From NCBI GenBank assembly GCA_018969975.1, contig JAGWXI010000001.1, forward strand, positions 22,918-86,917: a stretch of DNA of 64,000 nt, read 5' to 3'. Under the pieces are notes generated by a model. The model made no database searches, had not been told where the DNA came from, and saw only the letters and a program-made list of their open reading frames with translations. A program made the position numbers and the translations under genes. Origin of the DNA: Burkholderiales bacterium (GTDB lineage Bacteria > Pseudomonadota > Gammaproteobacteria > Burkholderiales > Burkholderiaceae_C). Of the stretch, positions 28,791 to 32,455 are shown piece after piece (positions within the stretch are counted from its first letter, which is position 1; each line of letters starts with the position of its first letter).

Positions 28791-29897
28791 TTAACGCCGA
28801 GCCGCAACCGCTTCTGACAACACCTTTAAACACGCCGCCGAATCGTCCCATCCCAAACAGGCGTCGGTGATGCTCTTGCCAAATTCGAGTTGGCCCACAT
28901 TGTCTTTACCAGGCGTGAATTTTTGGGCGCCGCCTTGCAAATGGCTCTCGATCATCACACCAAATACATGCTGTGAACCCGAACGGATTTGCTTGGCAAT
29001 GTCTTGTGTGACATCGATTTGGCGTTCGTGCTGCTTGCTGCTGTTAGCGTGGCTGCAGTCGACCATCAAGCGCGCGGGCAACTTGGCTTTTTCTAATTCT
29101 TGGCAAGCTGCTGTAACGCTGGCTGCGTCATAGTTGGGGGCTTTGCCACCACGCAAAATGATGTGGCAGTCTTTGTTGCCCTTGGTTTGGACAATCGCGA
29201 CTTGGCCGTTTTTATGCACCGATAAAAAGTGGTGGCCGCCGGCTGCGGCTTGGATGGCATCGGTCGCAATTTTGATATTGCCGTCGGTACCGTTTTTAAA
29301 GCCAATCGGCGCAGACAAGCCTGAAGCCAATTCGCGGTGCACTTGGCTCTCAGTTGTACGTGCGCCAATCGCGCCCCAAGCGATCAAGTCGCCAATGTAT
29401 TGCGGGCTGATGGCGTCTAAAAACTCGCTGCCTGCGGGCAGGCCAAGGCGGTTGATCTCAATCAGCAACTGCCGCGCGATGCGCAGGCCTTCGTCGATGC
29501 GGTAGCTCTCGTCGAGGTAAGGATCGTTGATCAAGCCCTTCCATCCCACGGTGGTTCGCGGTTTTTCGAAATACACACGCATCACGATTTCCAAGGTGTC
29601 GGCATACTTGTCACGCAAAGGCTTCAAGCGGCGGGCATATTCCAGTGCAGCAGCAGGGTCGTGGATGGAACATGGGCCAATGACGACAAGCAAGCGATCG
29701 TCCTTGCCATGCATGATGTTGTGGATATTTTTACGGGTCTGGGTGATCAGCCCTTCCACAGGTGAGCCCTGAATAGGAAAGAAGCGAATCAAATGTTCGG
29801 GAGGGGGTAGCACGGTGATGTCCTTAATTCGTTGATCGTCGGTCTGACTGGTTTTCTCAACAGATACTGAATAAGGAGTTTCTTTGGTTTGTTTCAT
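28791..29897 (-). CDS. aroG: 3-deoxy-7-phosphoheptulonate (DAHP) synthase, class I (AroG type)
   Basis: DAHP synthase condenses phosphoenolpyruvate and erythrose-4-phosphate, the first step of aromatic amino-acid synthesis. VVIGPCSIHDPAAALEYARRL is the class I signature with a metal Cys; PRTTVGWKGLINDPYLDES and GSEFLDAISPQYIGDLIAWG follow, and DCSHANSSKQ holds a metal-binding His. The ORF track starts at 30017, but that extension would read through an attenuator hairpin; ATG 29897 gives 368 residues and a normal N-terminal regulatory region. A Phe/Tyr-rich leader peptide and terminator lie directly upstream. Feedback type (Phe or Tyr) cannot be told from sequence alone. Confidence 0.96.
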   Translation of the reverse strand: MKQTKETPYSVSVEKTSQTDDQRIKDITVLPPPEHLIRFFPIQGSPVEGLITQTRKNIHNIMHGKDDRLLVVIGPCSIHDPAAALEYARRLKPLRDKYADTLEIVMRVYFEKPRTTVGWKGLINDPYLDESYRIDEGLRIARQLLIEINRLGLPAGSEFLDAISPQYIGDLIAWGAIGARTTESQVHRELASGLSAPIGFKNGTDGNIKIATDAIQAAAGGHHFLSVHKNGQVAIVQTKGNKDCHIILRGGKAPNYDAASVTAACQELEKAKLPARLMVDCSHANSSKQHERQIDVTQDIAKQIRSGSQHVFGVMIESHLQGGAQKFTPGKDNVGQLEFGKSITDACLGWDDSAACLKVLSEAVAARR

Positions 29898-29910: not shown

Positions 29911-29941
29911 CAAAAAAAAACCGCCGAGGGTTTCGGCGGTT
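29911..29941 (-). terminator. Attenuator terminator in the aroG leader
   Basis: On the minus strand ACCGCCGA-AACCC-TCGGCGGT is a perfect 8-bp GC-rich stem followed by nine T residues, 14 bases or so before the aroG ATG. A terminator inside a 5' leader, just after a Phe/Tyr-rich leader ORF, indicates transcription attenuation. Its 5' arm (ACCGCC) can instead pair with GGCGGT in the leader ORF, giving an antiterminator. Confidence 0.85.
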
Positions 29942-29961
29942 GGTTGGGGGGTTTAGAACTA

Positions 29962-30039
29962 TTACTTACGTTCAGACCTCTCGACCGCCTTGGGGCGTGA
30001 GATAAAGAAGTAAGCAAAATAAAACTTGGCTGAAGTCAT
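29962..30039 (-). CDS. Phe/Tyr-rich leader peptide of aroG
   Basis: A 25-codon ORF, MTSAKFYFAYFFISRPKAVERSERK, ends 22 bases before the attenuator hairpin. Six of seven residues from 6 to 12 (F-Y-F-A-Y-F-F) are Phe or Tyr, the end products whose shortage should raise DAHP synthase. It is the tail of the ORF-track entry 29962-30162, which is otherwise a shadow of tldD. Stalling at Phe11-12 would cover CGCC (codons 15-16), freeing GGCGGT (codons 17-19) to pair with the terminator arm; when translation completes, CGCC-CCAA-GGCG can refold and the terminator forms. A weak TTGACG at 30093-30098, inside the end of tldD, may be part of the promoter. Confidence 0.8.
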   Translation of the reverse strand: MTSAKFYFAYFFISRPKAVERSERK

Positions 30040-30074
30040 GGGCGCAAATGTATCACAGTCGCGTTTTACGGTTT

Positions 30075-31535
30075 TTATGCGGTTCCGCCAACCGTCAACC
30101 CATCGATGCGCAATGTGGGCTGACCAACACCCACAGGCACGCTTTGGCCTTCTTTGCCGCAAGTGCCTACGCCTGAATCAAGCGCCATGTCATTGCCGAT
30201 CAAGCTCACGCGGGTCAAAGCGTCTGGGCCGTTGCCCACCAAGGTGGCACCTTTCACAGGATATTGGATCTTGCCGTTTTCGACCCAATACGCTTGCGAG
30301 GTAGAGAAGACAAACTTGCCCGATGTGATGTCGACCTGACCGCCACCAAAGTTGGTGGCATACAAGCCTTTTTTGAGACTAGCCACGATTTCTTCAGGAG
30401 ACTTGTCTCCACCCAACATATAAGTATTGGTCATGCGTGGCATAGGCACGTGGGCATAGCTTTCGCGTCGTCCGTTGCCGGTGGGTTTGACACCCATCAG
30501 GCGTGCGTTCATCGCGTCTTGTATGTAGCCTTTCAAAATGCCGTCTTCGATCAAGACATTGCGTTGGCTGGTATTGCCTTCGTCGTCAACATTGAGCGAT
30601 CCACGTCGATCTGCCAAAGTGCCGTCGTCTAAAACCGTTACGCCTTTGGCGGCGACACGTTTACCAATGCGGCCGCTAAAGGCACTGGAACCTTTGCGGT
30701 TGAAGTCGCCCTCTAAGCCGTGCCCAATCGCTTCATGCAACAAAATACCAGGCCAACCAGGGCCTAACACCACACTCATCTCACCAGCCGGTGCAGGACG
30801 TGCTTCTAAATTAGTGAGCGCGGCTTTGACCGCTTCGTCCACATAACTCTGTGCCAGCGCATCGTCAAAATGGTCTAAGCCGAATCGACCACCACCGCCG
30901 GCCGAGCCCATTTCGCGACGGCCATTTTGCTCAGCGATCACCGTGACGCTCAAGCGCACCAAAGGACGCACATCTGCTGCCAAAGTGCCGTCAGCACGAG
31001 CGATCAAGACCACGTCGTATTCGCTGGCCAAGCCGGCCATCACTTGCGATACGCGCGGATCTTTGGCACGCGCCATGGTTTCAACTCGGCCCAACAAAGC
31101 GACTTTTTGGGTGCTATCGAGCGAAGCGATAGGGTCTAAATCTTGGTAGAGCGAACGGCTACCCGCGACTTTGCGCGCTGGGACTTTCACCCTAGCGGCT
31201 TTGCTAGCCGCGGCGATAGTACGCACCGTGTGGGCAGCGTCTGTCAAAGATGCGAGGGAGATATCGTCTGAATACGCAAACGCGGTTTTCTCACCACTGA
31301 CAGCGCGCACGCCAACGCCTTGGTCGATGCTGAAAGACCCCGTTTTGACAATGCCTTCTTCCAAACTCCAGCCCTCAGCCCGGGTGTATTGGAAATACAG
31401 ATCTGCTTCATCGACTTGGTGCGCTTTGATAGCCGAGAGCGTGTGGATCAAGTCGGACTCGTCCAAGCCAAAAGGCTCGAGCAAAAGGCGGCGGGCAACG
31501 TCTAAACGTTCAAGGGTGGGTTCGCGTGAAATCAT
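30075..31535 (-). CDS. tldD: TldD metalloprotease
   Basis: TldD pairs with TldE (PmbA) to form a protease that trims unfolded peptides, for example microcin or CcdA substrates. HEAIGHGLEGD supplies the HExxxH zinc motif, and the Gly-rich block GVRAVSGEKTAFAYSDD is typical of the N-terminal domain. I chose ATG 31535 (MISREPTLERLD, 486 residues) over the ORF-track start, which would extend into the previous gene. PmbA is not in the window. It lies downstream of rodA and the dehydrogenase gene on the same strand and upstream of the aroG leader. Confidence 0.96.
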   Translation of the reverse strand: MISREPTLERLDVARRLLLEPFGLDESDLIHTLSAIKAHQVDEADLYFQYTRAEGWSLEEGIVKTGSFSIDQGVGVRAVSGEKTAFAYSDDISLASLTDAAHTVRTIAAASKAARVKVPARKVAGSRSLYQDLDPIASLDSTQKVALLGRVETMARAKDPRVSQVMAGLASEYDVVLIARADGTLAADVRPLVRLSVTVIAEQNGRREMGSAGGGGRFGLDHFDDALAQSYVDEAVKAALTNLEARPAPAGEMSVVLGPGWPGILLHEAIGHGLEGDFNRKGSSAFSGRIGKRVAAKGVTVLDDGTLADRRGSLNVDDEGNTSQRNVLIEDGILKGYIQDAMNARLMGVKPTGNGRRESYAHVPMPRMTNTYMLGGDKSPEEIVASLKKGLYATNFGGGQVDITSGKFVFSTSQAYWVENGKIQYPVKGATLVGNGPDALTRVSLIGNDMALDSGVGTCGKEGQSVPVGVGQPTLRIDGLTVGGTA

Positions 31536-31555
31536 CCGACGATTGTAGGGTTCGC

Positions 31556-32455
31556 TTATTTTTGCTGCTGACGCACCCATTGCAACATGGCCGCATCATC
31601 TGCATCGGCCAAACCCGCTTGGCAGGCCTTGGCAAAAGCCTGCGCGGCCAAAGGTCCGAGCACACCATGAAAGCCTGCGGTTTTGGCGGCATCGACTGCC
31701 AAGCCGGTGTCTTTGGTCAAGAGTGTCATGTGTGCACGTGGCGCCAAATCATCCACCAATGCACGACGCATACGTTCACTGCCAATCCAACTCTGGCCGC
31801 TCGACTGCTCGATCACCGATAAGGTGGTGTCTAGCGACAAACCTAGATGCTCTGACAAAGCCATGACTTCTGCGGCACCGACTAAATTGATACCCGCTAA
31901 AAGGTTGTTGACAAGCTTGGTGCGCGCGCCGTCGCCCACGCGTGTTCCGATACGAAACACATGGCTTGACAAGTCATGGAGGAGTTTTTCCTGTTGTGCA
32001 AATACAGCGTTTTCGCAAGCCACCATCAAACTCATGGTGCCCGCTTCAGCACGCGCCGGGCCGCCAGACATGGGCGCGTCGATGGTGAATACGCCGTGGG
32101 CTTGAAGGCGGGAAGCAACCGTTTCCACATAGTGTGGTGCCAGGGTGGGGCATAAAAAGACTGTGTCGCCAGAGCGCAGCGCCGACCACCAAGAGGGTTT
32201 GCCATTGGGGTTGAGCAATTGGTCGACTTGTGTGTGATCGACCACGCAGACAATAACTGTGCGGGAAATTTGGCTCAAGGACGCTGCACTGCTGTGCGCC
32301 ACAGCGCCCAAGTCTTCAAGCGCTGGGGTTTTGTCTGAATCGATGTCATGCACTTGGACGCCATAACCCAAACTCAGCAAGCGACGCGCGATTCCCCCAC
32401 CCATATTGCCAACGCCAACTATGCCTACAACCGAGGCGGATTGGGATAGCGTCAC
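31556..32455 (-). CDS. NAD(P)-dependent beta-hydroxyacid dehydrogenase (3-hydroxyisobutyrate dehydrogenase family)
   Basis: A 299-residue two-domain dehydrogenase. VGIVGVGNMGGGIARRLLSLG is the N-terminal Rossmann loop. FTIDAPMSGGPARAEAGTMS is the substrate-binding signature of the family, and KLVNNLLAGINLVGAAEVMAL holds the catalytic Lys. Members act on 3-hydroxyisobutyrate, tartronate semialdehyde, 6-phosphogluconate-like or related acids; the substrate is not determined. Its start overlaps the rodA stop by ATGA, so it is translated with rodA, though no functional link is obvious. Confidence 0.93.
   Translation of the reverse strand: MTLSQSASVVGIVGVGNMGGGIARRLLSLGYGVQVHDIDSDKTPALEDLGAVAHSSAASLSQISRTVIVCVVDHTQVDQLLNPNGKPSWWSALRSGDTVFLCPTLAPHYVETVASRLQAHGVFTIDAPMSGGPARAEAGTMSLMVACENAVFAQQEKLLHDLSSHVFRIGTRVGDGARTKLVNNLLAGINLVGAAEVMALSEHLGLSLDTTLSVIEQSSGQSWIGSERMRRALVDDLAPRAHMTLLTKDTGLAVDAAKTAGFHGVLGPLAAQAFAKACQAGLADADDAAMLQWVRQQQK

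Follow-up and report, generated by a model that had tools for sequence, protein, structure and literature searches.

The leader region upstream of aroG in the window (the whole 64-kb stretch of DNA that was analyzed) is very probably a cis-acting, ribosome-mediated transcription attenuator of this gene. This reading was based on the anatomy of the locus, its conservation and covariation among relatives, its occurrence with DAHP synthase genes only and the folds predicted for it.

Organization of the aroG Leader

The controlled gene, aroG (28791..29897, minus strand), encodes a 3-deoxy-7-phosphoheptulonate (DAHP) synthase of 368 aa, which matched the NCBIfam aroFGH equivalog TIGR00034 (E 9e-163). 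Its reading frame was open as far as a TTG at 30017; judged by conservation, its start is the ATG at 29897. Upstream on the same strand, direct reading gave a leader ORF of 25 codons plus TAA (30039..29962) with the peptide MTSAKFYFAYFFISRPKAVERSERK and the bases ATG ACT TCA GCC AAG TTT TAT TTT GCT TAC TTC TTT ATC TCA CGC CCC AAG GCG GTC GAG AGG TCT GAA CGT AAG TAA. The leader of 25 codons with FYFAYFF described in an earlier note on this DNA was thus borne out. These regulatory codons, Phe-Tyr-Phe-Ala-Tyr-Phe-Phe, are codons 6–12 and occupy 30004..30024.

Four RNA segments, all on the minus strand, were assigned. Segment 1, UCUCACGCC (29994..30002), was recognized by folding and pair counts as the 5′ arm of hairpin 1:2. 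Segment 2, GGCGGUCGAGAG (29978..29989), whose partner is segment 1 or segment 3, was marked by nucleotide conservation across differing reading frames. Segment 3, AACCGCCGA (29933..29941), forms the 5′ arm of the terminator, and its ACCGCC also serves as the 3′ arm of the antiterminator. Segment 4, UCGGCGGUU (29919..29927), is the 3′ arm of the terminator and is followed by a run of nine U (29912..29920). The motifs CGCC (codons 15–16), GGCG (codons 17–18) and GGCGGT (codons 17–19) lay where the earlier note had placed them. Both pairings that it claimed, CGCC/GGCG and GGCGGT/ACCGCC, were recovered, but hairpin 1:2 also contains UCUC/GAGA. The intrinsic terminator with its nine U spans 29912–29941 and ends 14 nt before aroG. 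Its position and U run agreed with the earlier description, but the hairpin, AACCGCCGA-AACCC-TCGGCGGTT, has a 9-pair stem (29941..29919) with six G-C pairs, followed by nine T at 29920..29912, and not an 8-bp GC stem.

The 141-nt leader was more stable than all 200 of its dinucleotide shuffles (z −3.5). On both strands of the 64-kb window, it was the only ATG-initiated ORF of 12–40 aa with at least five F/Y in eight residues. First-order Markov sequence yielded 0.8 such ORFs per window at this threshold; at six or more, the level of the actual leader, none was found in six windows.

The aroG gene was the sole DAHP synthase found in the genome, with one match in the protein search; the genome is ~89% complete, so a second copy was possibly missed. 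The genome search found no type II DAHP synthase. A second PF00793 match (320 aa) was rejected as a DAHP synthase; it sits between pyrG- and eno-like frames, a neighborhood that is usual for kdsA. Members of the genus also contained two paralogous DAHP synthases (51% identity) that lacked such a leader, and in one of these genomes the aroG orthologue did carry it.

Distribution of the Leader

Relatives were found through their proteins, both in named genomes and in samples of the genus and family, which gave 137 aroG upstream regions. A leader rich in Phe/Tyr(/Trp), encoded by an ATG ORF of ~23 codons, was present in 119 of these orthologous loci; one extra candidate, L071, was dropped by eye. 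The earlier note had proposed conservation among relatives as a check, and the leader proved conserved together with the terminator, antiterminator and 1:2 stems, with some covariation. Terminator-like sequence followed the leader in 117 of 120 leader loci; of the remaining three, L048 and L104 showed a terminator on visual inspection. Among the 137 loci, the leader was missing at Polynucleobacter, two Cupriavidus loci, Thauera and Azoarcus, and some of the loci without it were on contigs too short to judge.

Under strict filters, a covariance model (R1) matched 63 of the 250 Burkholderiales genomes searched, once in each. In a set of 274 genomes of the class, the only other matches were in two genomes that belong to one further gammaproteobacterial family. 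All 32 matches inspected lay upstream of a DAHP synthase, and 31 of them had an aromatic leader. A plasmid search using a Burkholderia leader peptide gave no match.

The three Polynucleobacter loci (L032–L034) contained DAHP synthase orthologues (75% identity) without an aromatic leader, which probably represents loss of the attenuator. The leader of Candidatus Burkholderia humilis (L062) was frameshifted past FYFYF, and its 48-aa ORF spanned segment 2 and the terminator; the attenuator of this leaf-nodule symbiont may be decaying. Three DAHP synthases 65–68% identical to that of the window and without an aromatic leader (L050, L051, and L054) came from MAGs labeled Planctomycetota, Verrucomicrobiia and Gemmataceae, for which the explanation is transfer or binning error.

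Aromatic Codons

The amino acids of the aromatic run were kept while the codons varied, with TTT/TTC and TAT/TAC interchanged. TTT was preferred, making up 70% of the Phe codons in the aromatic runs; in the aroG genes of these genomes, its share was 23%. The earlier note regarded the tuned residues as the end products of the pathway. In the window these are Phe and Tyr, but most relatives also had a Trp codon (86 of 119 leaders): 81 of 92 outside the genus of the window vs. 5 of 27 inside. A response to each of the three end products, Phe, Tyr and Trp, is thus probable for the ancestral device; the genus of the window has mostly lost Trp, and the lineage of the window retains only Phe and Tyr. 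Sensing of all three aromatics would suit the entry point of the pathway. Two leaders also included His: that of L024, MRTTVRYHFWHFHIQHLTGAGVANA, has four His amid Phe, Tyr and Trp, and L059 contains FHFHFYFFWH.

Conservation of Segment 2 across Reading Frames

Segment 2 (GGYGG..GAGAG) was kept as RNA although it was read in different frames: 80 loci read it in frame 0, 35 in frame 2 and a single one in frame 1. In the 60 GGRE leaders, Arg in segment 2 was always CGA/AGA, which made up ~3% of the Arg codons in aroG, and Glu was always GAG, vs. 53% in aroG. The tail of the window leader is a frame-2 case, in which the usual GGRE(I/V)* end is shifted out of frame by one base. The nearest leader-bearing relative, L082 (aroG 96% identical), has the leader ...SRPHGGREV*. 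Compared with it, the window has one base fewer in the C run at codons 16–17; its tail reads ...SRPKAVERSERK*, and the leader stop is shifted three codons downstream. The missing base is either a real change or a one-base sequencing error. The later stop may weaken the masking of segment 2.

Predicted Promoter and Probable Leaderless Start

An extended −10 promoter element, TGATACATT, was predicted at 30047..30055 on the minus strand. A box of the TGTGCTACATT type was kept in 96 of the 119 leader loci, its end lying 6–9 nt ahead of the leader ATG. The base preceding this ATG was C in 79%. Shine-Dalgarno pairing was absent before the leader (mean −1.6 kcal/mol; 5% at or below −4.5), and aroG itself had such pairing (mean −5.5; 67%). 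The position of the box and the absence of Shine-Dalgarno pairing indicated that the leader mRNA is probably leaderless, with transcription predicted to start on the A of its ATG or on the base adjoining it (30039/30040). In Burkholderia and Massilia relatives, a TATA-like box was found ~40 nt upstream, so the leaderless start does not hold for all.

If the message is leaderless, the RNA released at the terminator would be a small mRNA of the leaderless kind, comparable to rnTrpL of Sinorhizobium (PMC7298713), and the leader peptide or this RNA could work mainly in trans, like peTrpL/rnTrpL, rather than as a cis attenuator. In some clades, conservation of the N-terminal half of the peptide also extends past the aromatic run (for Burkholderia relatives, MSAKFYFYFFW). 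However, the tail of the peptide is freely replaced by frameshifts, the stop position varies, and conservation centers on the aromatic codons and the RNA segments, always in cis to a DAHP synthase. We therefore regard a function mainly in trans as very improbable.

The promoter-like box also bears on the gene upstream. The tldD gene is codirectional and lies just upstream of the leader (30075–31580), and tldD is upstream in 98 of 119 loci, so the hairpin might merely terminate tldD, the small ORF being incidental. However, the box stands between tldD and the leader, and conservation of the leader ORF is seen at the peptide level. Moreover, the spacing between tldD and the leader varies from 17 to >1000 nt, and at the 21 loci without a tldD match the leader and terminator stay with aroG. 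This synteny led us to reject the tldD terminator, which we consider highly improbable.

Alternative RNA Folds

The core of the terminator and antiterminator was nearly invariant. The earlier note correctly proposed an antiterminator, but it is longer than the 6 bp given there and runs inward from the GGCGG core as an imperfect hairpin. Its GGCGG:CCGCC helix was 94.5% paired, with C-G/U-A covariation. The base preceding GGCGG and its partner following CCGCC varied jointly (CG 44, UA 11, and UG 6), and the terminator pair changed in step with this pair (GC 55 and AU 10); the cells counted are sequences and not independent events. One base of the antiterminator pairing of segment 2 thus appears to covary with both terminator arms, that is, one base with two partners. 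The covariation is partly a clade difference, and part of it may reflect one event in the tree; it is modest because most stem bases are invariant.

Hairpin 1:2, composed of UCUC/GAGA and CGCC/GGCG, formed in the window. Among relatives, 89.7% of its cells were paired and four of five pairs were doubly changed, although a slid control scored alike on covariation. It was weak (mean −6.4 kcal/mol), in many relatives as well. RNAalifold on the whole alignment returned the terminator only, because 1:2, 2:3 and 3:4 are mutually exclusive; the alternative folds were therefore counted individually. The antiterminator core formed in 112 of 115 folds of RNA ending before segment 4. The full-length RNA nearly always preferred the terminator, so antitermination must be kinetic and decided during transcription.

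In the ribosome-free partial fold, the antiterminator was found in 56 of 114 loci, and 1:2 beat 2:3 in only some relatives. The formation of the antiterminator without a ribosome in roughly half of the relatives would suit a metabolite- or protein-binding switch with an untranslated ORF, but the lack of any Rfam match around the window and in five relatives, the aromatic amino acids kept through synonymous codon exchange, and the in-frame ATG and stop argue for translation and make such a switch the least credible of the alternatives.

Ribosome Position and Proposed Mechanism

A ribosome was modeled by masking 15 nt downstream of the P site, a footprint that is an assumption. In the window, the antiterminator formed only with the P site at codons 9–12 (A site at Y10, F11, F12 or I13); earlier positions gave hairpin 1:2, and later ones masked segment 2. 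Across the relatives, placing the last aromatic codon in the A site gave the antiterminator in 111 of 114 loci; when the stop codon was placed there, none of the 114 formed it. The earlier proposal that stalling at the Phe/Tyr run frees segment 2 thus held in the model only for the last codons (Y10, F11 and F12 in the window). This positional pattern corresponds to the logic expected of a trp-type attenuator, and early stalls are predicted to terminate.

We infer the start site, the stalling, and the direction and size of the response in the following scheme of cis attenuation. Transcription would begin at the leader ATG or right beside it, yielding a leaderless message that is translated while being made. 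When Phe or Tyr aminoacyl-tRNA is scarce, the ribosome would stall at the end of the run (Y10, F11 and F12 in the window) and cover segment 1 (UCUCACGCC); segment 2 (GGCGGUCGAGAG) would then be free to pair with the ACCGCC of segment 3, blocking the terminator, and aroG would be transcribed. When aromatics are plentiful, the ribosome would pass over segment 2 toward the nearby stop, segment 3 would pair with segment 4, and transcription would end at the U run. Hairpin 1:2 should yield termination if no ribosome comes or if the stall is very early. Such control of entry into the shikimate pathway would, as the earlier note supposed, act in addition to feedback inhibition. With the Trp codon in the run of most relatives, the device probably watches all three products there.

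Comparison with Known Systems

A search of Rfam models around the window returned nothing up to E = 1, and in five relatives there was no match at gathering scores. The leader was not described for betaproteobacteria in the openly accessible literature that was searched. Proteobacterial attenuators are said to have been treated by Vitreschak in 2004.

In Corynebacterium glutamicum, the AroR leader lies upstream of aroF, a DAHP synthase gene, and Phe limitation is reported to raise its transcription (PMC11802643, citing Neshat 2014; PMC4046766). As described there, it resembles the present leader in placing a Phe-Tyr-Phe leader peptide before a DAHP synthase gene. Compared by description, it differs in belonging to an actinobacterium, in its much shorter aromatic run and in its reported response to Phe and not Tyr. 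In Acholeplasma, the uORFC-13-1 motif upstream of aroF was proposed to be a Phe uORF (PMC8632094). It shares the uORF with Phe codons and the terminator before DAHP synthase, but it comprises 24 sequences from one genus and metagenomes, with another structure and no long F/Y/W run described.

The pheA, pheST and trp attenuators of E. coli (Rfam Trp_leader and relatives) share the leader codons, the pause and the antiterminator/terminator logic; however, they control terminal-branch or tRNA synthetase genes and sense one amino acid each. The DAHP synthase genes of E. coli are under TyrR/TrpR control (PMC11802643). The trpL attenuator RNA of S. meliloti (rnTrpL) has its 5′ end at the ATG of its leader ORF (PMC7298713), which resembles the start predicted for the aroG leader, but it belongs to an alphaproteobacterium, responds to Trp only and lies upstream of trpE(G). 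The aroG leader is therefore a known kind of device, whereas the family, the run of three amino acids and the probable leaderless start appear to be uncatalogued.

Significance

The chances seem to us about even that these leaders constitute an uncatalogued RNA family that extends through the order, whose single leaderless leader ORF senses the charging of the Phe, Tyr and Trp tRNAs together and thereby controls entry into the shikimate pathway, with lineages retuning the device as Trp codons are gained or lost. An attenuator at aroG would give the first committed step of aromatic synthesis a regulatory RNA across Burkholderiales, where Rfam and the papers searched offered no mechanism for this step. 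The leader would also offer a model for the integration of three amino acids and for attenuation on a leaderless message, and a natural Phe/Tyr/Trp-responsive part for aromatic production work in Burkholderiales.
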